From the NCBI GenBank assembly GCA_030568195.1, contig JAJLTO010000018.1, positions 165,733 through 229,732 of the forward strand: a stretch of DNA of 64,000 nucleotides, in the 5' to 3' direction. This document shows positions 11,151 to 62,865 of the stretch, one piece after another; the first letter of the stretch is position 1, and each line of letters starts with the position of its first letter. The position numbers and the translations under genes are program-made. This stretch comes from Dipodascopsis uninucleata var. uninucleata (taxonomy: Eukaryota; Ascomycota; Lipomycetes; Lipomycetales; Lipomycetaceae). The notes under the pieces are model-generated. The model made no database searches and had not been told where the DNA came from. It saw nothing but the letters and a program-made list of their open reading frames with translations.

Positions 11151-12239
11151 GCATCAACTTCTTTTGAGTTGACTCTGATTTTGAATGCATTTTCTTATCT
11201 TTATTTTGCCGTTCTGATTTCCTCGCTTCTTTCCACTTGCCAGATCTTTCTTGTGATCATGCATGTTCTACGCTCAGCACATCCATCTCAAGTAGTCACA
11301 ATGGTCAGGAAATTAGCGCGCATTGTCTTTATGCGATGTAGTAGCTTCCTATCGTCAGTCCTGTTACCAGCTGATAGTTTGCTCTCATCCGTTCTACGCA
11401 ACAATAACCAATTTGTGGTAGATACACTAACAGAGTATTCACCACTGGTATTTAAAAACATTCAGATATTTATTAAATAGATCAACTATGTTATGTCTCG
11501 TCATTTGCGACCCGCTGGCGTTGTAATAGACAAATGATCGCCAAAAATACTCCAACCATGACCGCGAGCCGCTTAGCTACATTGCTATATCCGTGAAAAT
11601 TATTCTGAGTGCAAACAGCTTTCTGAACCTCTTTGAAAGATATGTTCGGTTAATATTTTAAGCACTGCAAGTGCTATGATTGCCGGAGCATATATATAAA
11701 TGATTGTCAATCTTATAGGGTCGCTATGCATATATACGTGATTGTATGTCACATATACGTCACATAAATGTAATTATTGAATAGTCCTTATGGCACATAT
11801 CACTGGTATGTGTGAAATATATGTATTGCGGGGGGGAGTGGAAGCATGTGATATATAACGTCATGCTGCATTTATATTGAATGACCGGATTCGCCGCCCA
11901 CTATAAAAGCCAACTCCCGAAATGAACTTCCTCGGCAATAGCTGATGTCTCGTGAAGTAAAAAATAGTGAACAGCAATCTTACAGCATCTGACAGATCCG
12001 TAATAACCTCATCGATCAACACTCTCTCACCTGATCTAAGTACCGATGAGAAAGAGGGACTCAAAAACTGTAACAAAGCAAATCGTATTGCCCGCATTTC
12101 AAATAGCCATATACAACAGCATATATTTTTGATATATCAATCACCATTTCTCTCTCCGATTTTACTTTCAATCTGCTTTAAACATCTCGTTTCGAACTTA
12201 CTTCTTTTTCTCTAAGATCTTATAATATCAAGTCCTCCT
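11151..12239. other. intergenic; relic upstream sequence and promoter of the acyl-CoA dehydrogenase
   Basis: The plus-strand open frame of 135 codons at 11073-11480 overlaps the copia gag remnant on the other strand and is not taken as a gene. The G-run near 11829-11835 is notable in an AT-rich context. No other gene seen. Confidence 0.5.
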
Positions 12240-13901
12240 ATGTCGACTCAACATAATAATAATCAGACGTTTACGGCAGATGATGTCGCTAAGCACAATA
12301 CAGAAGACTCACTTTGGATAACAATAGATGGTGCGGTTTTTGATCTTTCAAAATTCCAGGATGAGCATCCAGGTGGAAAAAAGATTTTGAAGCGTGTTGC
12401 TGGTAAAGATGCTTCTAAGATGTTTTGGAAATACCACAATGAAAGAATTCTAAAAAAATATAAACCAAAACTTCAGATCGGTGCGGTAGCTGGCACTGAA
12501 GCTGCGGCTGCAGCATCTTCTGGCTCTTCTAGTTCTGCAGGCACTGTTGCTCCTGTGGCCGCAACCACGAAAGCTAATAGCGGCGAGGTTTCTGGACATA
12601 TTTCTAGAACATTTGAGCCATTCGGTGATATGATCCCATATGCCGATCCCTCATGGTATCAGGGATATGCTACTGCTTACTACGATGATTCACATGTAGC
12701 TCTTCGAAATGAAGTTCGCGCTTGGGTGGATTCTGACCTTGAGCCAAATGCAGAGGAATGGGAAGAAAACAAAGAGGTTCCTCCGGAAGTATTTAAAGAA
12801 ATGGGTCGACGTGGTTATCTTGCAGGAATGCTGGGTGTCAAATATCCTGTGGAGTACACCGATGTTCGACCAAAATGCGTTGCTGCTGAGAAATGGGATC
12901 ATTTCCATGAAATGATTGTGGTCGACGAGATCTCGCGAGCTGGCTCTGGAGGTTTAGTTTGGAACTTGATCGGTGGATATTCAATAGGCGGCCCTCCTTT
13001 AGTGAAATTTGCAAAGCCAGAGGTAAAAAAGCGGATTTTGCCAGGTCTTTTGTGTGGCGATAAACGCGTTTGCCTCTGTATTACTGAACCTGACGCTGGG
13101 AGTGATGTGGCCAATATTACAACTACTGCCAAACTAACGGAAGATGGCAAGCACTTCGTTGTAAATGGTGAGAAAAAATGGATTACAAATGGTATTTGGA
13201 GCGACTACTTCACAGTCGCAGTGCGTACTGGCGGTGAAGGTATGGGTGGTATCTCATTGCTACTTCTCGAGAAGGATATGCCCGGTCTTAATGTCAGACG
13301 AATGGATTGCTCTGGCATGAGAAGCTCTGGAACAACATATGTGACTTTTGAAGATGTCAAGGTTCCCGTCGAGAATCTCATTGGAAAGGAAAATCAAGGA
13401 TTTAAGGTGATCATGACAAATTTCAATCACGAGCGCATGGGCATTATTATACAAGCCAATAGATTTGCTCGTGTCTGTTATGAGGAATCGGTCAAGTATG
13501 CTCACAAGCGACGAACATTTGGAAAACGACTTATCGATCATCCAGTCATTCGAGCTAAGCTTGCAAACATGGCTATACGAATCGAAGGAACTCATAACTG
13601 GCTCGAGAACTTGATGTTTCAAACTGGTGCGATGTCTGAACAAGAAGCTATGTACCGCTTAGGTGGAGCGATTGCGGGCCTAAAGGCTCTTTCTACACAA
13701 ACATTCGAGTACTGTGCACGCGAAGCTTCCCAGATTTTCGGTGGGCTTGCCTATTCACGGGGCGGACAGGGTGGTAAAGTCGAGCGTCTCTATCGTGAGG
13801 TCCGTGCATATGCCATTCCTGGAGGGTCTGAAGAAATCATGTTGGATCTCTCTATTCGTCAGGCATTAAAGGTTCACCAAGCACTTGGTGCCAGATTATA
13901 A
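12240..13901 (+). CDS. cytochrome b5-acyl-CoA dehydrogenase fusion with C-terminal PTS1-like ARL
   Basis: A single-exon protein of 553 residues. Residues about 10-80 form a cytochrome b5 haem-binding domain with the axial-histidine motif EHPGGKK and second histidine in KYHNERI. An Ala/Ser-rich linker (about 83-112) joins it to an acyl-CoA dehydrogenase (about 145-545). That domain has the FAD/substrate signature CITEPDAGSDVANI, the loop GEKKWITNG, NHERMGI, RRTFGKRLIDHPV, and the C-terminal QIFGGLAYSRGG and AIPGGSEEIM, where the Glu of SEE is a candidate catalytic base. The flavoprotein would carry out alpha,beta-desaturation of an acyl-CoA, with the b5 domain perhaps handling electrons. The protein ends in ARL, fitting the PTS1 consensus [SAC][KRH][LM], so a peroxisomal site is predicted. 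This domain fusion is known in filamentous fungi; the substrate is unknown. Confidence 0.9.
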   Translation: MSTQHNNNQTFTADDVAKHNTEDSLWITIDGAVFDLSKFQDEHPGGKKILKRVAGKDASKMFWKYHNERILKKYKPKLQIGAVAGTEAAAAASSGSSSSAGTVAPVAATTKANSGEVSGHISRTFEPFGDMIPYADPSWYQGYATAYYDDSHVALRNEVRAWVDSDLEPNAEEWEENKEVPPEVFKEMGRRGYLAGMLGVKYPVEYTDVRPKCVAAEKWDHFHEMIVVDEISRAGSGGLVWNLIGGYSIGGPPLVKFAKPEVKKRILPGLLCGDKRVCLCITEPDAGSDVANITTTAKLTEDGKHFVVNGEKKWITNGIWSDYFTVAVRTGGEGMGGISLLLLEKDMPGLNVRRMDCSGMRSSGTTYVTFEDVKVPVENLIGKENQGFKVIMTNFNHERMGIIIQANRFARVCYEESVKYAHKRRTFGKRLIDHPVIRAKLANMAIRIEGTHNWLENLMFQTGAMSEQEAMYRLGGAIAGLKALSTQTFEYCAREASQIFGGLAYSRGGQGGKVERLYREVRAYAIPGGSEEIMLDLSIRQALKVHQALGARL

Positions 13902-21306: not shown

Positions 21307-24300
21307 ATGACGGATAGGCAAGGAAAAGTAACCTTTTCGCTATTCAATCAGTCGGAAAATGATTTCAATGGTCATACATCTATCGGTGCACGAAATGGAA
21401 AGACTATTTGGGCACCATTAGGTTCATATTCACCTTCTGCTAAAGGCAGTTCAAAGTTACTGTTACCTGATGAATCATCTGTAGATCATATTGAAAGTCA
21501 GGCTCATGCGATACTCTATGCTTATCTTGATATTGTCATGGCCGTGCCGTTTCCAGCAGCGCTTTGCTATGGGCCAGAGCTTCAATTAACATGGTAAGAT
21601 ATAGATCTTTTTTTTGGGAAAGATGTGAGATGATGCGATAAATTATGCGCTCATTATTGATGGCTGGCTAGTGAGGATATGAAAGTGGTATTAACTTCTA
21701 AATTCTTTTTCTTTACAGCAATCAAATGTTTACAGAACTTGCGGGAATCAATGACAACTTTGTCGACTCTTCTGCGCTTACATTTTCAGACGTCGTAAGT
21801 TGTCATGAGTCTGAGTTTGAACTTTCAGAAGCTGTGACGAACTGTATGACCAGGGGTATGCCAGTAGTGACTGATAATCTACTTGCATTTGTTTATAATA
21901 CGAAGCGTGAAGATGAACTGTCGCATAAATCTGAATCTTATTTCACGTGGAAGATGGTGCCAATAATGGAGGAGAATGGAGATGTTTCTGGTGTTTTCAT
22001 CACAGTGACAGAGACTACTGATACGGTTCTATACGAACGTCGAATGCAGGTTCTCAAGGAATTGTATGACGCTACTGCATCAGCACTTATATTACCCGTC
22101 TTTTTCGTCCAGTCAGTGTCAGTACTACACAATCACTGCGCAGAAGATGTGGCTCTATTTGGTCTGTACGTATATGAAAACTCCAGATCAAAAACGCTTC
22201 TGCATCGATGCGGATTCGGGCTTGTGGATTTCCCAGAAAGAGTAGCGTTCGATCCTAATCCTGCATTGTTCGAACAAACTATTCTTGATACCAGTAGCTC
22301 AGCTGTTTATATTAAGTCTGACGCTGATGGCTTCAGGAACTATATTCAATATGATCCAACTCGGGGTTGGAGTGATGAAATCCGACAGCTTGTTTTCCTG
22401 CCTGTCATGCGAGATAACAAGTCTGTTGTCGGTGTTGCGGTTATCGGATTAAATCCCAGACGATCTTTTGATGAGCCTTACGAACTTTTCTTAGAACTCT
22501 TAGGTCGACAATTGGCTACCGGTATTGACAATTTGAAGCACATTGAAGAAGCATCAGCCAAGTTGAACTGGGAGGTCGCTATGAATATGAGAGAAAAGGA
22601 AGAATTGGAAGTCCTTTTGATGGAAAAGACGAAGCAACTCAAGGTTAGTGAGAACAGATTCACTAGCATGGCGCAAATTCTTCCCGCTGGTCTGTTTCTT
22701 GGTTCACCTGAAGGTGAGATAGTGTGGGCGAATGATGCGTGGTATAAACTTGCTGCGTATCCAAAAGACAATAATCCGTCATTCTGGATTAAATCTGTAC
22801 ATCCTGGAGATCGAACGTTAGTTCGTGATAGCTGGCGACGTGTAATGCAAGGTCATACCGTTCAATGCGAATTTCGATGGGCTAACAAGCGAGGTGATCC
22901 ATCAAATTTTGAAAGATGGTGTTCCAGTACGACCTCAGTTGAAATAGATCCAGAAACAGAAAAAATATTATATATAACAGGTGTTTTGACGGATATTACT
23001 GAAAGAAAACGTGCAGAAGCTCTACAGAGACAGAGAGCGGATGAAGCGGTAGAGCGACGACGTCAGCAGGAGTATTTCATAGATGCCATTTCGCATGAGA
23101 TGCGCAATCCACTTAGCGCAATTATCCAAAGTTGTGATGTTGTCTCTCAGAAAGTTGATACAGTTATCAAAAATATAGCTGCAAAGTATGGAGAGAATCA
23201 AAAACTCGAGAAAGACGAATTGACGGAAAGTGCAGAATGTCTATCGACTATACAGCTCTGTACGTCTCATATGCTCAGAATTATTGGTGACACAATTAAT
23301 CTCAGCAAAATGGAGTCCGGGCTGTTTCCTATTAATCCTAAACCTTGTAAGCCAGTCGAGGTAGCTAGAGAAGTTTTAAAGATGTATGAAAACGAGTTCA
23401 AAAACCTTTCGATTACTTTCGATCTTGAGATTGGTGAAAACTACAAAATGCTTGGTTTAGAAGTTGTCAAAATGGATTCTAGAAGAGTTATGCAAGTCCT
23501 GATTAATTTGGTTTCAAACTCGATAAAGATATTGACAAGCACGGAAAATAAACACATTCTTATACGAGTCGATGCTTCTGTCGTCAAACCTGCGCTCTGT
23601 CAAAATTCTACGTCATTTTATTTCCCTCAGAAACGAAACTGCTTGACTCGTTTCTCTAGTTTGTCAAGTTCGCCATCAAAGAGCGTTCCCTTAACAAGTT
23701 CTGCTTCTAGTGCAGCGTTAACTGCTCTTTCTGTTAACACACAGAGTGTTGCTGCTATTGATAGTGTTCTTCCCCGGGTTAAATCCTATGCTTCTCTAGC
23801 AGCGTCTCGATCATCGTCTGTTTCATCGTCTACTGGTGTCACACAGGATCCTTTAATGGTTGAAGATAGAACTAGTATATATATAATGTTCTCTGTGAAA
23901 GACTCGGGACCAGGAATGGATGAGGAGCAATTATCTACGGCGTTTCAGCGGTTCACTTCTCATTTCACCCCTCGAACCCATGTTAATTACGGCGGGACTG
24001 GACTTGGTCTTTTTATATGCCGGAAGCTTGTCGAGAACCAAGGTGGTGAGATAACTGCGGAGTCTAAAAAAGATGAAGGTTCGGAATTTGCTTTCTATAT
24101 AAAGGCTGGTAGATGTAATACCAACTCAAACACCGAATCTGAAGGGTCAGGCGATGAGCGATCGCTGATTTCTGGTTCTGTTGATGGGAAGCCGCTGGCT
24201 ACTTTCGATATCTCTCAGAAGAAAATACTTATTGTGGAAGACAACGTTATTAACCAAAAACTCTTGGAACGTCAACTAAAGAATACTGGATTCAAGACCA

Positions 24301-24617
24301 TTGTTGCAAATCATGGCCAAGAAGCCCTCGATATTATTTTGTCTGGAATAAAACCGGACTGCTGTGTAATGGATTGTGAAATGCCTGTTATGGATGGCTT
24401 CTCGGCAGTCAGGAAAATACGAGAATTAGAAAATGATGGGAAGGTTGAAAGTCGTCTTCCAATAATTGCGCTCTCAGCAAATGCCAGACAAGTGCATTTT
24501 GACCGAATGTTTGAGGCTGGCTCTGATCGTTATATAACCAAGCCGTTTAATTTCTCTCATTTGATCGAGGTTGTTAAAGAGCTTCTACAATCTACATCTA
24601 GCCCTTGCCTTCGATAG
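21307..24617 (+). CDS. hybrid sensor histidine kinase (PAS-like, GAF, PAS, HisKA, HATPase, receiver)
   Basis: The exons are 21307-21593 and 21719-24617, giving 1061 residues. The intron is GTAAGA...TTTACAG, and splicing joins LQLT to CNQMFTELAG. An N-terminal PAS-like region (PAALCYGPELQL) is followed by a GAF-like domain (about 213-370) and a PAS/PAC domain (about 410-530, ending TGVLTDITERKRAE). HisKA has the phospho-acceptor H555 in ISHEMRNPLSAI. The HATPase N-box is DSRRVMQVLINLVSNSIKI. The G1 and G2 boxes are DSGPGMDEEQL and GGTGLGLFICRKL. A receiver domain (from about 930) has D981 in VMDCEMPVMDG and a conserved lysine in YITKPF. About 90 mostly serine-rich residues are inserted between the N-box and G1. 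The build resembles the fission-yeast Mak/Phk peroxide-sensing kinases that feed a stress MAPK phosphorelay. The signal sensed is unknown. Confidence 0.9.
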
Positions 24618-48553: not shown

Positions 48554-50629
48554 TTAATCGCTCCCATTTGACGATTTTGTTGTAGACGTCACACAAGATT
48601 TCAAAGAACGTAACGACGGAGGAAAGCCCATTGACTTCACTTTTTTCTCAACATGGTTCTCGTCATCAACGATAACACTTTTGGCTAGTAGAGGCTTAGG
48701 AATAACATCCTGACTACTAGTAGAACTCCGTGAGGGCGTATATGCTGGAGGTTTCGGGGTCGCCAAATTAGCGAAATGTGCAGGTAAGAAAGGTTCTCGA
48801 AGACGCGGTATTACCGTTGAAGAAGCCCTCGCAATATCTTTGTCGGCTACATCCATTGGCTGTCGAGGTGTCCTGAAGCGTGGCCGATTAACGATCGTGT
48901 TGATCTCATCATTTTGGCGCTTCTTAGACCCCGCAACATAACTATCATTTTTTTCATTTTGTTTAGCGCCCTCACTTTGAAGTATTTCAGTATTAGCATC
49001 GCTAGCATCTACTACCGTTGACTCTTCTACTGCCTCAATCTGAGTAAGCGTACCATTGCCTGAGGTCAAGGAGCCAATCAGAGATTCGACAAGATCACCG
49101 AGATCTCCAGCTTCACCTCGTCCCATAGATGTCGTCAGCGACAAAACTTGTTCAGTAACGGCCTCAGCTGTCTGCTGATCAAGATTAGCACTGTCCAAAG
49201 CGGCAGCAAGTGCGGCAGTAAGCTCGGACATCTGATTTTCATCCAAGGGTAGTCGTTCTTCTTCTCCTACTGATGGACCATCTATTAAACTGTCATCCTC
49301 GCGATTCATATCAAGCTCGTGTATAGGAGAAAACTGATTCTTGTCATTGTCACCGCCATCAAATGATGGATCCATGTTATCAACTCGCAAGTTTACGTTG
49401 GATTCATTCCTCTCCTTCTCGATATTAGTTTCTGTAGAATGATCTATATTTGGATACTCTAATCGATTTTCTACCACCACTGCTTCACCAGTATTGATTT
49501 CCGCGTCCAATTCCTGATCAATTCCACTATCTAATTTATCAGAATGATCCAAGTGATTTCGGCCACGAGACTCGTCGAATGCTACAGAACTTGCATTATT
49601 GGACATATTCTTTATAGCATCCATCATAGCAGAAGAGAACGACAATTCGTTGTTCTCCATTAAAATAGGCTCCTGTTCGATTGTGTTAATACTAGGCGCA
49701 TCATCCGATCCATTATTTTGTATAAGTTGTGTTAAGTTTTTTATAAGATTTGGATCTCTCGCAAGCTGAAGCAAAGTATTATTGAGAACCTCGACGTCTG
49801 TGCCATCGCCAATAAGTTCTGCGAGGGCCTGTTGAAGTTCTTCTCCAATTATGGCTTGAGTAGCAGCATTTCCTTGGTTCTTTTGAAAACGCTGTATGCG
49901 CTTCTCTTTTCTCTTCACAAATTCCGCATCCATCCAAGCTTGCTTCTCTGACGATTCCTGTTTTCCAAACAATAAGTCTGCTCTTCGGTTTACGCGTCCC
50001 CTGAGATCATTATCTTTATTCCTGTCCTCGTTTAACTCTCTCCATTTTCTCTTTCGTGCTCGGTTCTCTAGTTTTATTCTCTCCCTCTCTTCTTCTGTAC
50101 GTGGTGGAGGGCGCCGTCTTAATGGTATATTTTGTAAACTACTCAATTTACGCTCCAGATCTTCTTCTTCCAGACCTTCGTGCTGATCTAACAATGAAGA
50201 TAGAGCAGTAGTAACAGCCTGCAGGAGAATAGTAGAATCAATTCCAGTAGCATGTTGCAGTTCACTGATGGCAGCAATTGGATCGGTAAGATCCATACCC
50301 ATAAGCAGTTCTGCTATATTGCTGTTTTCCAACAAACCGCTACCATCTTCAATATGATCTATACTATGATCATCTACAGAAGTGATGCTTAAACTGCTGT
50401 CTTCAGTATCTGCATTTCGAGACAGTTCTGCTCCAGTCGTCTGCGATGACATGCTGTTGATCATTGGATCGATAACGGCTTCCTCAATCTCAGCGCGATC
50501 CTCCTCTCTAGATGCATTCTTCGCGCCTTCGCCATCTATAATTTGAACTGCGCCGCCTTGGCATGTATTATGATCTGCTCGTTCTTCATCTAATGATTCG
50601 CCAACAAAATCATCTTGTAGGGGTTCCAT
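48554..50629 (-). CDS. DUF3020-domain nuclear protein
   Basis: A single exon of 691 residues from ATG at 50629 (MEPLQDDFVGES). The longer open frame to 50683 starts with TTG right after a stop and is not used. The recognisable part is a basic helical block at about residues 175-250: RTEEERERIKLENRARKRKW, NDLRGRVNRRADLLFG and FVKRKEKRIQRF, typical of the fungal DUF3020 family (KRKWRE...N-DLR-RVN-RA). Flanking regions are acidic and low-complexity, with two short helical repeats (ALAAALDSANLDQQTAEAVTEQVLSL). The basic block suggests nucleic-acid or chromatin contact, but no function is established. Confidence 0.75.
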   Translation of the reverse strand: MEPLQDDFVGESLDEERADHNTCQGGAVQIIDGEGAKNASREEDRAEIEEAVIDPMINSMSSQTTGAELSRNADTEDSSLSITSVDDHSIDHIEDGSGLLENSNIAELLMGMDLTDPIAAISELQHATGIDSTILLQAVTTALSSLLDQHEGLEEEDLERKLSSLQNIPLRRRPPPRTEEERERIKLENRARKRKWRELNEDRNKDNDLRGRVNRRADLLFGKQESSEKQAWMDAEFVKRKEKRIQRFQKNQGNAATQAIIGEELQQALAELIGDGTDVEVLNNTLLQLARDPNLIKNLTQLIQNNGSDDAPSINTIEQEPILMENNELSFSSAMMDAIKNMSNNASSVAFDESRGRNHLDHSDKLDSGIDQELDAEINTGEAVVVENRLEYPNIDHSTETNIEKERNESNVNLRVDNMDPSFDGGDNDKNQFSPIHELDMNREDDSLIDGPSVGEEERLPLDENQMSELTAALAAALDSANLDQQTAEAVTEQVLSLTTSMGRGEAGDLGDLVESLIGSLTSGNGTLTQIEAVEESTVVDASDANTEILQSEGAKQNEKNDSYVAGSKKRQNDEINTIVNRPRFRTPRQPMDVADKDIARASSTVIPRLREPFLPAHFANLATPKPPAYTPSRSSTSSQDVIPKPLLAKSVIVDDENHVEKKVKSMGFPPSLRSLKSCVTSTTKSSNGSD

Positions 50630-51172
50630 AATAACTGTCTCAGGATCCAACTGTGCAGATGAGCGCGTCGTACCAGTCTCCAAAAGTCACCGCCGCCGTT
50701 GATGCGGCGCCAACAGTTCGATTATATAAGCTCAGATGAGCCTGTAGGTTTGCGATAGTCTATTGTATCTTAATGGGCCACTTTCTTGCTCAGTAGAACC
50801 TCTTTTCGTAGACCTATAGCGCTTTGAAAGTAGGACTGTTTTGTGACTTCTTTCAGGACATGAAAGAAAATTTTCTCTTGGATTTTAGGGTAGTGTGAAT
50901 CGAGAGCCCTGTATTAGCCTAACCCAAAATGGCCCTAGCCATATACGGCAACTTTTACAGTACAAAATCAAGGGATGCGGACCTTAATTAGATTGTGATT
51001 TGGGGATGATGATTAATTACAAGATAATGATTTAACTTGTTCAAAGAAATATTGTTGTCACTGAATGTTTCTAGGAAAATATTCAGATTGGGTATGGTAG
51101 CTTGATAAATTGTAGTAATAAATAAATAAATACAGTATATAATCTCTAATGTCATCATCAGCCAATTTATGT
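50630..51172. other. intergenic, no gene seen
   Basis: Promoter of the DUF3020 gene and 3' region of the homeodomain gene. Nothing recognised apart from AT-rich runs. Confidence 0.6.
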
Positions 51173-53068
51173 TTACTTAAAGAGATTGTCCAATGCACCA
51201 TATCCGTATATGCCTAAGTCTTCAACTTGTCGAGCGATTTGCATTACTCTAACATTTTCCTCTAGTGATTGTAAATTTTGTGTTGAGAGCCCAAAATTGT
51301 CTGAAAAGATCAGGCCATCCGAAACTTTGCTTTCTGTTAGTATTGTAGGAATATTATTTTCTGCATTCAAATCACGAAAACTTTTGCCAGCATTGCAGTC
51401 ATAAGCAGGTCCCTTCAGTTCATTAAAAAAAACAGGCCGGATACTCGAAGGTACTGCTAACTCAATAGTTGATGCCTTATTAATTATTCTTTGCTGATTC
51501 CAAGTAGGCGATATTTCTGTCTGTACTACATTTGACGGCTGAGTTACAGATGAAGTTGATGACTCAAAAATATAAGCTTGATCTGCCATTATAGATGCTG
51601 AATGAAGAGAGCTATCAGATAAATATTTTTCTTCAAAATGACTGAGCTGTAGTTCAGCCTTAGCTGGCAATTCCGACTGCGACGATTGGATATTGATACC
51701 TCCCTCATATCGTGGCTTCTTTGAACCTCTATCTGCCTTGTAAGATTTCTGGGTAGTACTAGGTATATCCCCAGTACTTACCAGTTCTTGGCTACTTTGA
51801 AAAGCGGAAGATAGTTGTCCATACGACAAAGATAGTGAATAAAGAGCTTTCGGATCAGCTGAACTAAAGCTTAACTTTCTAGAATACATCTCGTTATCTC
51901 GCGTAACTACATTAGAAGTGTAGGTAGGTGCAATGGATACGCTTTTTGATCGCCTGACACCAGAACTAACTGGTTGAATGCGTAAAGGATCTGGACTAAA
52001 TGTATGTTTCTGCGGCAGAGGGGCAGTCGATGGAGTAGATGGTACTGATGATGTACCCCTTAGGCTTCTTGTTCTCCGTAGCCTCATAGGAGAAGGTATT
52101 TGCCGTCGCCGCCGTGTCGCAATACTAGGCTTACTGGCAAATAGCTTTAACGATAAATCTATAGGAGACTGCGGATGATTAAGTTCCTGTAAATCCCAGC
52201 TATCTGGAGAAGAGTAAGAGTTGAGCATGTGATTTCCAGGACTCCTCGCAACTGGCGATTGAAATTGATTCACGTATGTAGCAAGCATGGACGGTGCCAT
52301 CCTTACAGAAAATGATTCTGCTGGTGAATAAGGCGATCTACCATAATGCTCTGGTGCACTGGGTGACGAAATTACGGGTGGAGGCGTTGTAGTGCCATAG
52401 AGACCTCCAACACTATTGCTGTGCATGGCATAAGGTGAGTGAACATATGCCGCTCTCGCTGCTGCTACGGACCTTTCTAGTGACGCATATGAAGCCTCAG
52501 AAGGTGATAAATACTTAGTCGACGATTGATTCATGCTTTGACCAGTAACCGGAGTAGACGGTGTTTCTATACTAGCTTGCCATGAATGTACCGGACCATC
52601 TTGGTTTCCAGAAACCGACATACAAGATTGCCTGATACCCGACTCAATACTGTTATTACACCGGCTTGAAGGTGGAGTAGAAGGACTAGCAATTTCTGGA
52701 GATTTTGCTGCACCTAGATCGGACTCTGAAACTATTTTCTGTCCTGCTTGTGCCAAGATCATCTCCACTCTACTCGATTCCTCAAGTTTTTTGCTTTTAG
52801 CTAGTTTTCTTCTTTCTTGAAACCACAACTTTTTGCATAAAATTAGTACTTGAACCTATTTCTTAAAAGAACAGATATTAGGTAAGGTTTCCATCTAGAC
52901 ACTTACTTGGACTACTCTATTTGATGTTCCAATCTGTCGGGCTAATATCTCCTTTGACCCATTAGTTATTCGAGGGTTTTCGATGAACACATTTTCCAGA
53001 GTAATTATTTGACCTTCGTTGAGTCCAAGTTGAGATGAAAATTGATCCACGGTTGTAACAAACGACAT
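51173..53068 (-). CDS. homeodomain protein with altered recognition helix (Asn51 to Glu)
   Basis: The exons are 52907-53068 and 51173-52828 (minus strand), giving 605 residues. The intron has GTAAGT, a TACTAAT branch and acceptor AAAAAG, which restores exact homeodomain spacing (SNRVVQ joined to LWFQERR). Residues about 11-68 form the homeodomain: GQIITLENVFIENPRI (helix 1), SKEILARQIG (helix 2) and NRVVQLWFQERRKLAKSKK (helix 3). Trp48, Phe49, Gln50, Arg52 and Arg53 are kept, but position 51, almost always Asn, is Glu. The basic N-terminal arm is missing from this start; an in-frame stretch upstream ending in a TTTATAG acceptor could come from another exon. The long C-terminal region is Ser/Pro-rich with an Arg-rich patch (TRRRRQIPSPMRLRRTRSLR). 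It may bind DNA weakly, differently or not at all. Confidence 0.8.
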
Positions 53069-54299
53069 TGTAATTGAATCTTCCTATAAACAAGCCAAAC
53101 TACGAGCACTTTCTTAGACATTCGGGTAAGCGAATTACTATCAACGCAGGCTATTGCTGATGTTAGATTTCCAAGCTGTAACTTCAATTCCTACCAAATT
53201 GCTTTCAATACTATAGGTGCTATATATAAACAACCGACTATACTTCCTGTAATGCGATATGGACTTAAAACACGATAGCTTATGTACTGCCCTCCTGTGC
53301 AAAGAGCACACTAAGCGTGCAACATAGAAATGTTTTGCTATAGACAGAATCCGATAAATGTACTTATTTGATTCTTGAAAGTAGTATATATAGAGTAAAT
53401 ATCTAAAAGTCAGTGAATAAGAAAAAATAAAGACTGTACATAAATTATTGTAAATTTTCTTGTTTGATCAGCTTGTGTCAAATTGGCTGGGAACGGAAAT
53501 ATGTAGGAGATCGAAGAAAGGGATGAGCGCGTAGCTCTCAGAAGAATATTAAAACTACGCTACACAATTTCCAGCTTTTACTAATATTTATTCATTCTAT
53601 TTGAATTAAGAATATTTGTTTGACTATACAAACTTATATAGAATATTGGAAGCATTATAACTAGCATCGTCTTACATATTTGCAATATGATTATATGATG
53701 ACGTAGTGCTTACCATTTTTTCGCTGTTCATCCCAAATTTTATTTGCTATCAATCCTGAATATTAGGCATTTCTAGAATGATAACTAGATAAACAGTTGC
53801 CCGTAGGGTCTAAATAAATTACGATACCCTGTGATATTAATACCATATAAATCTTGATTATTCGCACTTTTCTCACACAAGCACACTTTTCGCCGTCTAG
53901 AAAAGTGTGTTTGTTCACCGCGCGTAAACCTTGATTAGCTTTTGCAGACGATTCTTCCATTCTAGTTTAGATAGATGACAACAATATGTCAGAACTTTCA
54001 ATGATAGCTGTCAGATCAAGAAAACAGCATCAAAAGGTAGCGGGTATTCACAATCCTAACTTTGGATTACAGACATGTGCAAAACTTATCTACTGCAAGG
54101 GCAAACTGAACTCAGTACAACATTTATCTTTAAACTACTGGTATCACTCAGCTTCAAAATAAAAAGAAATCCAGAAAGTTCACGAATTCAAAAAATAATA
54201 GTTTTATTAGAATAACTAGTAGCAGGCTGTAATAAGGCCTAAAATCATGTTCACATAATATACAAAACTTGTTTGCAAGTTTGCTGTTTGTTACGTAAC
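53069..54299. other. intergenic, upstream of the homeodomain gene, with a perfect hairpin
   Basis: About 1.2 kb. It holds the perfect inverted repeat at 53882-53909. A 65-codon minus-strand ORF (53763-53960, ATG start, MEESSAKANQG) covers the hairpin. It resembles no known family and is not called. Confidence 0.5.
53882..53909. repeat. perfect 10-bp inverted repeat (hairpin)
   Basis: CACACTTTTC (53882-53891) and GAAAAGTGTG (53900-53909) are exact complements across an 8-nt loop. A partial third copy (GCACTTTTCTCACA) lies about 15 bp to the left. Such a palindrome can be a dimeric protein-binding site or an RNA hairpin. Confidence 0.7.
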
Positions 54300-56297
54300 T
54301 TAATCTTCGCTCACTGAAGTCACGTGCTCATCTTGTGCCATTGAGTCTTTAGCCAAGTCAGCATTTTCTTCAGCATTTTCCGCGGTTGATTGAACAGCCC
54401 GCGGAGTTGGCGTCCAGAATTGCTTCCAATCCTGCTCTCTTAGACGGCGTTTAGAGTTCAAAAAAGAGTTGAACTCCATCACCGCCATAGAGGTTTCGAC
54501 CATAGCATGTACTGGTGCACGCTTTGTAGTGTCCGCCTTGATTCCCTTTGATGGTGTAGTAGCATACTTCGCCGGTCGGTCCTGAGGGTCCAAAAAGGTA
54601 TTCGACGAAGCAGTAAAAATCCTAAATATTCTATCTACTGGAACATTGCTGAACTTTGAGACGAGTGAACCTCTTGTACCAAATATAATCTGGCCACTAG
54701 AATCGCTCCTGGAAGAATAAGATGAACTTCCTTTCAGACCGTCGTATTGCATAAAATTTCTTTCTGGTGGTACATACTGCGAGTTTGGATTATTGTTTGT
54801 AATTGGGGCCACTCCCTGGTTTGAGGTGGACATAGACTGGTGATATACTACTGGTCTTTTCTCAAGAGCAAAGTCATTTTCAGTGAAGCCATCATCACGC
54901 GCCTTCTGCTCCCAGTAGTCATCTTTCACTCTGCGGCCATCAACGATCACTAAGCTACCAAATTGTCGGTATATACTTCTTGCAGAGACCAATGCAATTT
55001 GCCGTGATCTGTACGCATATGGCAAATAACTTAGTTCAATTAAAGCTTCTTTATCACTCTGCGTAGCAATTAACTTATATAGAGATCGATTCTTGTTGAA
55101 CAATAAATATGAATCCCTGTAATTCAGCTCTTTTGCACATTCTGTTGCAAGCATAAAAAGCTTGCCACCCCTCTTCGGAAGACTGAAAGTACGCATTCGA
55201 TATTCCCTTCCGCCTAGTAAAACACCGTCTTTATCAACCTTCTTCTCTCCATTAGGATCAGTCTCAGCATCAATATACTCATCTCCTTCGGCATTGAGTT
55301 TTTCGGTAGTATGGTCACTAGACATCTGTGGTTGCGGGAAAACTCGTCCTCTACCACCCGGGCCCACTCTTGGGACACTTGCAGAATAACCGCCACGACC
55401 ACCAGGTGTAAGTGGGACTAATCCGCGCCTTCCTCGTCCTCGGCCAACCCATCGAGATGGTGTAGACGGTGTGCCTCGTCGTCCTCGAGGAATTACGACT
55501 GTCGCATCTTCTTCATCTTCATCATCGTCTTCATCATCGTCTTCATCATCGTCTTCATCTTGATCGTCATCGTCATCTTCATCTTCTTCATTTTGATCGT
55601 GCTCATCTACAGCATCGTCATCGTCATCGTCGTCATTCCCATTCCCATTCTCATTATCAATCTTCTCAGATTGTTTAGAACCATTCCTGTTTCCCAGATC
55701 ATCGTCTGAATCTTTCATATCTGATATAATTGACTCTTCTCTGACTTCATTTTGTCTAGTGTCATCCTTACCGGCGATATAAGATTCATCTATTTCACCT
55801 TCTTCTTTGTCGTCATCATTTTCATCTTTCTCTGACACGTTGCCTCGATCCAGTTTCTCATTATTTGGAAGCTCATCAATTTCACCATCTTCCATATTTT
55901 TTATATAATCATTTTCGCCAATCAGCTCTGAATTCTTCTCGTAGTGATTTATATCATTACTAACATTAATATCATCCGAAAATATATCTATTATCAAAAT
56001 AATTAGACCTGAGACACAGTATTCCCATAGAATAGTAATGATTCACATACCATCTGCATTTACAATAGAGCTTGGGCTTCCAAAATGTTCCTCTAATGCG
56101 TCATCTTCCTCTGCCATAACTTTACTGATTGTTAGTTCTCCATCATCTTCATCCTGTATTATAGGAGTATATGAATGAGAGCGTGATCTTGGGTGCATCG
56201 TCTTCGATCTCTTGCTAGGAGATGAAGCTCCACTTGAGCCCTGCGATCTCTTTAACGGGCTTGCACTACCCCGCGTATCGTCGTTGTCCTCCACCAT
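54300..56297 (-). CDS. RSC7: chromatin-remodelling complex subunit, Rsc7/Swp82 family
   Basis: The exons are 56051-56297 and 54300-55987 (minus strand), giving 644 residues. The intron begins GTATGT and ends GATAATAG; the frame is kept (IVNAD joined to DIFSDD). ATG at 56297 (MVEDNDDTRG) is used, since the open frame further up starts with GTG. The N-terminal 270 residues are low-complexity, with basic Ser/Arg patches, a very long Asp/Glu tract and an RGG-like region (RGRRGTPSTPSRWVGRGRGR). The CRC-subunit domain follows (about 285-400): DKDGVLLGGREYRMRTFSLP, KLFMLATECAKELNYRDSYL, LYKLIATQSDKEAL and VDGRRVKDDYWE. This domain defines Rsc7/Npl6 and Swp82 in the RSC and SWI/SNF remodelling complexes. 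Which complex it joins is not clear. Confidence 0.88.
55499..55640 (-). repeat. trinucleotide-rich tract encoding Asp/Glu
   Basis: Imperfect tandem CATCGT/CTTCAT units inside the Rsc7-like gene, read on the minus strand as GAT, GAC and GAA codons, encode a run of about 45 mostly Asp/Glu residues. Such tracts change length easily. Confidence 0.75.
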
Positions 56298-59696: not shown

Positions 59697-62268
59697 TCAA
59701 ATTTTCGACAACTGAGGGTTTTTTCTCGGCCTACTAACGGTGACTAAGGCATCTCCCTGAGGTCGCATTGCTTGCTCCATTGTCTGCACTTTACTCTTTT
59801 TTAATTTTTTCCCTGCGTCATCTGCTAAAGCCAAAACTCGTACACTAACTGATGAACTGTCTCGCCTGTTCTTACCTTCCCTACGGAAAATTGATATTCT
59901 TTCTACATAATCCCACAGTCTCCCTTCAGGTTTAATTCTAGAAGCTCGAGAAAATCCTCTAGATCTATTACTAGGTTCAGTATCATCATATCTCTTCGGA
60001 AGCCAGTCAGGAGCTAAGGACATCACATCAGGTAGTCTGCCTGACTTTGATCTTCTTATAACTATGATTCCTTCAGCTTCAAACTCTTGGAAGGCAGATC
60101 TAAGCATTTCTTTATTTACAGCCTCAAAATACGACAGATCACCCTGGGCAAAAAAAGTCTTTCCAAGGAGTTGAGCAACGTTCAAGAATTCTTTGATTTC
60201 GACCCATAATGTCTCGGTGTCGTCAATCTGCTGCTTCGTAGAATTACTTGATGCCATCGGAGTCAAAGCGAAAAGTACAACTGATGCAAGCCAGTATCCA
60301 TCGCAAAATGGCCATAATAAAAAGCAATAGAAGTCGAAAAACTCTCTGCCTCTCTTGCGCTCTTCTAGGCTCAGTTCGACAAAACCGTCTTGAGAAAGAC
60401 TGATGACACCCTGGTCTCTGAGAAGCTGAATACTTTCCCAGAAGTTTGCTCGAGTACCACCGGGTTGTTGGCTATAAACAAATTCGCCTGCAAGTAATTT
60501 TGATAGCCAGCGAGCTTTCTCAAAGAGATATTTGATAGGAACTCTTTGCATTACTGGACCTCCTCCTTGTTTTATTTTTGTGTACATTGCGACTGCTATA
60601 ATGGCATCAGAAACAAATAAATGTATTACCATGTTCCTATAATAGCTGAGCTGAAACCTGTCTGCAGCAAAAAACGTTGTCTCCAAAAGAATTCCATTCT
60701 CTCCTGATCTTCCTACTAAGTTACCAAGAACATCTAAAGCGCGGTCCACAACTTGTCTCGTAGTCAACTTTCCAAAATCTGCCACTCTTCCACCTCTCTC
60801 GCGAATGCGAAGACATAGCCATTCAACTCTACTAATCAGTTCGGAATGGCCCACACCTCGACCTCGAAGAGTCAGTAATACCGTTCCTATAAGAGCAGTG
60901 GGCATTACCACAGAGGCCGCATTTATATTTGATAACACCTCGTATCCAAGAGAGCGTAATATACGGATGCGAAGTTCATCGTTTTGAGATACTTTCTCCA
61001 TAGTCAACAAATCACCATTAGCAGGGGTGTATCTCTCCATTTGGAACTGTATAAAAGATTTTAAACTCCAAGAATCGTAAAATCGTACGTCAACTCTCCC
61101 CATACGCAAGGAAAGAACTTCACGTGCACTGAAAAAGTCCTGTAAGTTTTCTTTCTTCTTATCAGATCCTAATAATTCATTCACGTAACTCTCAGTCTCA
61201 ATAACTTTGTCATATTGAGTTGAAACTGGTACTATCCAACAATCGTCTGTTCTTCCTGAAAGTATCGAATCAAAGATAAACTTCAAGATTCCAAATTTTG
61301 GAGGCAGTAACTTTCCTAACCTGGACCTTCCACCTTCGATAAAGCATTCGAAGTTATAACCATTAGATAGTAAAGTGTCTATATATGCCTGTATTAACGC
61401 GCTATATAGCTGATCGTCGCCAAATGATCGTCTAATCCACATAGCACCCAGTTGCTTATCGAGTGAGGTTAGTAAAGGCCCTCAGCTCAAGATTAAATTG
61501 TTTTGATATACTTACATTTAATGCAGAACCTATTACTGCAAAATTGAGATTATCTCCTGCTACCACGGTTGGAAGTGATATTCCCACCTGAAAGCAAATT
61601 GCCTGTATACAGACATAGTCTATATGAGATCTATGGCAAGGTAGAAATATTAAACTTTGATTCTTTTTAGCTGCCTCTGATGCTATGGTCTTCAGCTTTA
61701 CTATCTCTTCAGCATTCACATGAACGCCTTGATTGTATGTACGTCCTAAGATTTGCATTACTATATAGTATGCGATACGAAGTATATGTTTATGTTCAAA
61801 TTTGCAGATCATATTATCTGTTTGCTTTGCTGCAATACCTTGAAGCCAGTGAATTATCTGGGTCTTCCTATGTTCCCGTGTATCCTGATCCAGATAGCAC
61901 CAAGGCGCGATCTCATTGACGTATTTCTCAGCTAGACTTGTTATCCTGTTCTGTAGTAACAAGTTCGATAGTACCTTTTTTTTCATATCTTCGGTGAATC
62001 CATGATAGCATATCTCTTTACCAACATAGTTTTCATATGATCGATACGAAAGACCAACTATATGCTTTCCTATATCTCTCAGAAAAGTCACAGGAGCTTC
62101 ACGAAAATGTGTCACGCTGGACGTAAGATTTCTAGTAGAAGTTTCAGTTTCAGGCGATTGATCGGCCATGGTAGGATCTAACTTAATCGACCCCTCTCGA
62201 ATACCTTCCAATATATTCAAGTCATCTTGCTGTAGTAGATCGACATCTAGTGGATTCTTACGAGGCAT
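59697..62268 (-). CDS. PlsB/GNPAT-like glycerol-3-phosphate or DHAP acyltransferase, C-terminal SKI
   Basis: The exons are 61516-62268 and 59697-61454 (minus strand), giving 836 residues. The intron (GTAAGT...CGATAAG) joins GSALN to QLGAMWIRRSFGDD. The acyltransferase blocks are in order: block I CHRSHIDY (HX4D, about residue 212), LPTVVAGDNLNF, block II GAMWIRRSFGDD, block III FIEGGRSRLGK, and block IV WIVPVSTQYD. This is the arrangement of bacterial PlsB and animal GNPAT, not of the yeast Gat1/Gat2 enzymes. It would acylate glycerol-3-phosphate or dihydroxyacetone phosphate, the first step of glycerolipid or ether-lipid synthesis. The protein ends in SKI, a near-match to PTS1; animal GNPAT is peroxisomal. 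The C-terminal 350 residues are helical and end in a basic patch. Confidence 0.87.
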
Positions 62269-62865
62269 TTCGTTTTCTTCGGAGCTATAGAGTGTTCAAA
62301 ATTGCGTTGATTGTAAGTAAATCAGATTGGTTAGGCAATAGTTATCTGGGGAAGTAGATCATCTTTTTTACCCTAATCCATACTACTGGGAGTTTACTTA
62401 TAAAATTACAAAGCTTTTAGATGCAACCCATCTTACATTATTATCGAAATATAAAATTATAACCATTTTTATAATACATTAATTTACCGTTATACATAAT
62501 TTGAGAAAGTTTTATAATCGGTTTCCTGCAGCTGAGAAGTAGGATTTTATAGATTGATATGATATTTTTATCGTTTATGTAAGAACTGACTTGTAGAGTA
62601 GCAAAACTTTCCAAAAGCTTATTTCTAAGTGGATAAATTTATTGTTTGGTAACTCTGAAAGTACGATATTCAGGCTCGCTTTATTTAGTATGCAAACAGT
62701 AGTGCAATATTCATTTCTAAGGCACCGGTTCAATTTTAGTGCTTTTCTTCTAATGTACTAGGTGGTGTGATAGATGTTTAGTTTGAACTTATTTAACCGT
62801 TGTGGCACTCTATTTAGTAGTTTTTGCTTATTTCCGATTATATCTTGAGCAATTTCTGCCACTTA
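62269..62865. other. intergenic, no gene seen
   Basis: Promoter of the acyltransferase gene, then AT-rich sequence up to the copia relic. Nothing recognised. Confidence 0.6.

Follow-up and report, generated by a model that had tools for sequence, protein, structure and literature searches.

A Dipodascopsis homeodomain protein with Glu51 and no basic arm that probably does not recognise the usual homeodomain site autonomously

The stretch of Dipodascopsis uninucleata var. uninucleata DNA analysed here (the window, 64,000 nucleotides) carries a homeodomain gene with an unbroken reading frame in which the near-invariant Asn51 is replaced by Glu and Arg5 by Gln, and judging from this sequence the homeodomain probably does not read the usual homeodomain DNA site autonomously. 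Established homeodomain chemistry leads one to expect that DNA binding is either abolished or altered, and the loss of Arg5 strengthens the expectation. The joint loss of both base anchors favours a partner role over a new specificity, and on balance we lean towards an intact protein that no longer recognises TAAT-type sites autonomously and that serves as a co-regulator of transcription or as a dimer partner.

Table 1. Position of the homeodomain gene and its parts in the window
Feature	Coordinates	Strand	Description
Homeodomain gene	51173-53068	minus	Two exons, 605-residue product
Exon 1	52907-53068	minus	Residues 1-54: N-terminal arm lacking basic residues, the first two helices, beginning of helix 3
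Intron	52829-52906	minus	78 nt, phase 0, separating homeodomain position 46 from 47
Exon 2	51173-52828	minus	Residues 55-605: rest of helix 3 and Ser-rich region; stop codon at 51173-51175
Glu51 codon (GAA)	52814-52816	minus	Protein residue 59
Basic stretch RRRRQIPSPMRLRRTRSLR	52058-52114	minus	Residues 293-311

Gene structure, splicing and neighbourhood

The coding parts of the gene are listed in Table 1. The start ATG at 53068 is closely preceded by an in-frame stop codon (TAG at 53086-53084), and the intron has a GTAAGT donor, a branch-like TACTAAT and a final AAAAAG, so placed that the spliced text reads NRVVQ/LWFQERRKLAK. The junction between 52907 and 52828 is supported by a second homeodomain gene of the same genome, L004, whose intron interrupts the homeodomain at the identical position (VQ/IWFQNRR, with GTACGT, CTAAC and TTTAG as the corresponding signals). 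When the 3′ splice site was varied over ten AG sites, only those at 52828 and 52855 kept the frame open, Glu51 being retained with both, and retention of the intron leads to a stop codon. Use of the second in-frame site, with exon 2 beginning at 52855, adds nine residues (VQVLILCKK) within helix 3, directly before Leu-Trp-Phe.

The open frame of exon 2 extends over 551 codons, for which the chance expectation is about 2e-16 at the stop frequency that the training frames' base composition predicts. Codon usage exceeds that of shuffled sequences with a z of 8.0 for exon 2 and, weakly, with a z of 2.2 for exon 1; an antisense frame of exon 2, however, scores no lower than the sense frame (0.083 vs 0.079). 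In the protein the homeodomain is N-terminal and a long Ser-rich region follows; the basic stretch within the latter, RRRRQIPSPMRLRRTRSLR, is possibly a nuclear localisation signal or a phosphate-binding patch. We also sought an upstream exon with a basic arm in the sequence upstream of 53068, where TATAG at 53084 could serve as a 3′ splice site and a donor, though a poor one, might be GTAGGAAT at 53194; neither a branch site nor a basic arm was convincing there.

A preliminary description of this region, made from the sequence alone, had proposed the same splice form, and the L004 intron agrees with it. Its interval for the homeodomain (52740-53068) does cover the domain, but the gene continues beyond it to 51173. 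Asn51, whose presence in the true splice form it had named as an objection to its own reading, is absent from both open splice forms, and a pseudogene, the other objection that it anticipated, is unlikely, the frame being intact.

The gene is flanked by an SPP41-like (DUF3020) frame at 48557-50686 and by a frame for an RSC7/Swp82 chromatin remodelling subunit at 54303-56042, both on the minus strand, and no mating-locus gene is named among the 20 frames scanned, which are a part of those in the window. Elsewhere in the window there are a hybrid histidine kinase with PAS, GAF, HisKA, ATPase and receiver domains (21702-24614, plus strand), an acyl-CoA dehydrogenase with a cytochrome b5 domain at its N-terminus (12216-13898, plus strand), and a glycerol-3-phosphate acyltransferase (59700-62295, minus strand) whose acyltransferase domain is divided by an intron or a frameshift between two frames that overlap, 59700-61481 and 61459-62295. 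Two conserved proteins place the genome near the budding yeasts, probably on an early branch. Compared with solved structures, 976 residues of the second subunit of RNA polymerase II score highest with 5x4z (Komagataella; 1866 bits), followed by 3h0g (fission yeast; 1828) and 1i3q (S. cerevisiae; 1789), and the 51 kDa subunit of complex I scores highest with 6gcs (Yarrowia; 914 bits), followed by 9ihp (874) and 7zm7 (Chaetomium; 858).

The homeodomain and its relatives in the genome

Residues 18-65 match the Pfam Homeodomain family (PF00046) with 34.8 bits (E 1.4e-8), which exceeds the curated cut-off of 22.9 bits, and this is the sole domain matched in a Pfam search of the whole protein. With the numbering anchored on Phe20 and Trp48, the residues present include Leu16, Glu17, Phe20, Trp48, Phe49, Gln50, Glu51, Arg52, Arg53, Lys54, Leu55 and Lys57. 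Retained among these are the fold residues Leu16, Phe20, Trp48, Phe49 and Arg53, which we take to be the core set that identifies a homeodomain, together with the Glu17/Arg52 pair. The features of canonical DNA binding are altered, with Glu in place of Asn51, Gln in place of Arg5, and an arm (Ser3, Gln5, Leu6, Gly7) in which neither Lys nor Arg occurs at positions 1-9. The net charge of the homeodomain is +5, compared with +8 to +13 in the other five homeodomains of the genome.

These five (L001-L005) were found by searching the 16.2 Mb genome, in 25 contigs, with PF00046, and there are at least that many, the count being a lower bound because exons were searched singly and the window gene itself was missed; the one match to PF05920 is already among them. 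All five have Asn51. L001 to L004 are typical, each with Arg5, and have 4, 4, 5 and 6 basic residues in positions 1-9. L005 is TALE-like and was left out of the arm and Arg5 comparison, its Asn51 being read from WFINARRR. The PF00046 scores are 60.7 to 70.6 bits for L001-L003, 41.4 for the first exon of L004 alone, and 33.4 for L005. Searching the genome with the whole window protein revealed no paralogue except for a weak match to L001 (38% identity, E 0.07), a HOY1/TRF2-type homeodomain protein with PF24818 (G000:C13:201810-204974). In solved structures the residue aligned with Glu51 is Asn in the best 5 of 48 matches. The preliminary description had held that residues 48-50, 52 and 53 are normal, that Glu occupies position 51, where other residues than Asn are rare, and that the basic arm is missing, and on each of these points the comparisons here agree with it.

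The protein was not placed in any of three classes considered. TALE homeodomains carry a three-residue insertion after helix 1, before helix 2, and here there is no insertion, Phe20 and Trp48 being the standard 28 apart. A HOY1/TRF2 assignment was rejected because the protein has no match to the PF24818 PH-like domain up to E 10. The Pho2/RfeB interaction region, in which Asp, Glu and Gln are spaced three apart according to the residue numbers in an excerpt of PMC11508405, is likewise not recognised, there being no match to D..E..Q in the 605 residues.

Further copies with Glu51 were sought throughout the genome with a helix 3 codon pattern for Trp-Phe-(Gln/Lys)-(Asn/Lys/Asp/Glu)-Arg-Arg, which some Ser codons also fit. 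It occurs at 12 places, compared with one in a reversed control, and five of these are homeodomains: the window gene, the only one with Glu, and L014, L017, L021 and L022, which are the same loci as L003, L004, L002 and L001. The other seven include WFQERR on C6 and WFQDRR on C15, and as stops directly ahead of the motif are also expected in a split gene, all six frames at these loci were searched with a helices 1-2 profile built from five homeodomains of this genome. The best E value was 0.18, compared with about 1e-22 or better at three loci holding members of the profile, so that none was accepted as a homeodomain, and the seven look like chance occurrences. With a less strict Asn pattern there were 18 places, compared with 22 in the control; three of the 18 are L001, L005 and L016; seven of the 18 were read, and four of the 18 (L026-L029) gave no match to the helices 1-2 profile up to E 10. 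No relative was found when viral_contigs was searched with the whole protein, and a pattern made from residues 1-85 matched 133 stretches in the prokaryotic genome_contigs, none of them encoding a relative.

Known homeodomains and possible roles of the protein

Structures of homeodomains on DNA show two hydrogen bonds from Asn51 to an adenine, with the N-terminal arm inserted in the minor groove (PMC11832328). An early set of 346 homeodomains had Asn51 without exception (PMC2211742), and mutation of this residue has been described as abolishing DNA binding by homeobox proteins, while NUP98-HOXA9 with N51S still activated one promoter without significant binding (PMC2725295); these statements, like those on published proteins below, come from excerpts of the papers cited. 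Loss of Asn51 and homeodomains that do not bind DNA are kinds that are already known. Human SEBOX is a natural example of the former in a homeodomain that is otherwise recognisable, but it has Lys51 and Trp53 where the window protein has Glu51 and Arg53, and its authors raise the possibility of a pseudogene (PMC2211742). HOPX does not bind DNA and works via other proteins (PMC9179269), and the window homeodomain can be likened to it by analogy, through its proposed non-binding; HOPX is, however, described as the smallest homeodomain protein, whereas the window protein has more than 500 further residues. Among fungal proteins, the homeodomain of a basidiomycete HD1 mating protein can be dispensable, as it is for sexual development in Coprinopsis cinerea (PMC4915694), but HD1 genes are found next to HD2 genes at mating loci, and the frames that neighbour the window gene are SPP41-like and RSC7-like. 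L001 resembles the window protein in having a homeodomain followed by a long Ser-rich remainder and is its only other match in the genome, but it has Asn51, Arg5 and PF24818, all of which the window protein lacks. The literature matches listed, which represent their sources in part, contain no description of Glu51 combined with loss of Arg5 in an ascomycete.

We propose that the three-helix fold would be retained, with the acidic side chain of Glu51 in the major groove replacing the Asn51-adenine contact and with the minor-groove contact of Arg5 and the basic arm lost. The homeodomain, in a gene presumed to be expressed, would then be used for protein contact, or for weak phosphate contact, with Arg52, Arg53 and Lys57 remaining; the long Ser-rich remainder and the basic patch may provide for nuclear import and regulation, and the protein might act through a partner in the manner of HOPX. 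Loss of autonomous TAAT reading in a domain kept for protein contact is the best fit because both anchors are gone and the fold residues stay. Some DNA binding by the domain, weak or assisted, is possible, since Gln50, Arg52, Arg53, Lys54 and Lys57 are kept and the net charge is still positive, and the arm loss alone proves little, since PROS-class homeodomains also have no basic arm (PMC4901127).

The main rival to a partner role is a changed specificity, which we regard as doubtful, with Glu51 reading another base at the core position of a non-TAAT site. Glu is able to accept a hydrogen bond from the amino group of cytosine or adenine, and the retention of the rest of helix 3 in a domain that is still basic would suit such a reader, but the second base anchor, which one would expect such a reader to retain, has gone with Arg5 and the basic arm. 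Nor does a Glu51 reader appear among the literature matches listed, where the text WFQERR has no match. Somewhat less probable again is ordinary DNA binding with assistance, in which Glu51 would be tolerated and a heterodimer partner or basic stretches would help, the partner giving the specificity. The basic stretch at residues 293-311 would suit this reading, and mushroom HD1/HD2 proteins offer a heterodimer precedent (PMC4915694, in excerpt), although Pfam recognises nothing in the protein besides the homeodomain.

It is also conceivable that the homeodomain is under relaxed constraint in a decaying gene, its residues drifting, and the simultaneous alteration of two of the most conserved positions and a PF00046 score below those of L001-L004, though near that of L005, could be taken as signs of this. 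We consider it improbable, as the 605-codon frame is intact, the splice signals are clean and the fold residues are preserved, and the codon usage of exon 2 points the same way, with the reservation that one antisense frame scores as high. An error of sequencing or assembly at the codon, or a wrong splice form, seems scarcely credible: a single assembly is the source, but the step from Asn (AAY) to Glu (GAR) takes two base changes by the genetic code, the frame is intact on both sides, either open splice form keeps Glu, and the intron position is common to L004. These two base changes and the 551 open codons of exon 2 make error or pseudogene unlikely, and we treat the gene as intact.

We suggest, tentatively, that the protein could represent a conserved fungal subfamily with Glu51 fixed and Arg5 absent, its members being either dedicated partners of another homeodomain protein that do not bind DNA or readers of a non-TAAT core via Glu51. 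Given the near-invariance of Asn51, an intact natural protein with Glu51 and without Arg5 is a ready test case, and it would offer a test of whether the homeodomain fold may be kept for uses beyond the reading of TAAT, or whether another residue at position 51 may give a working new specificity.
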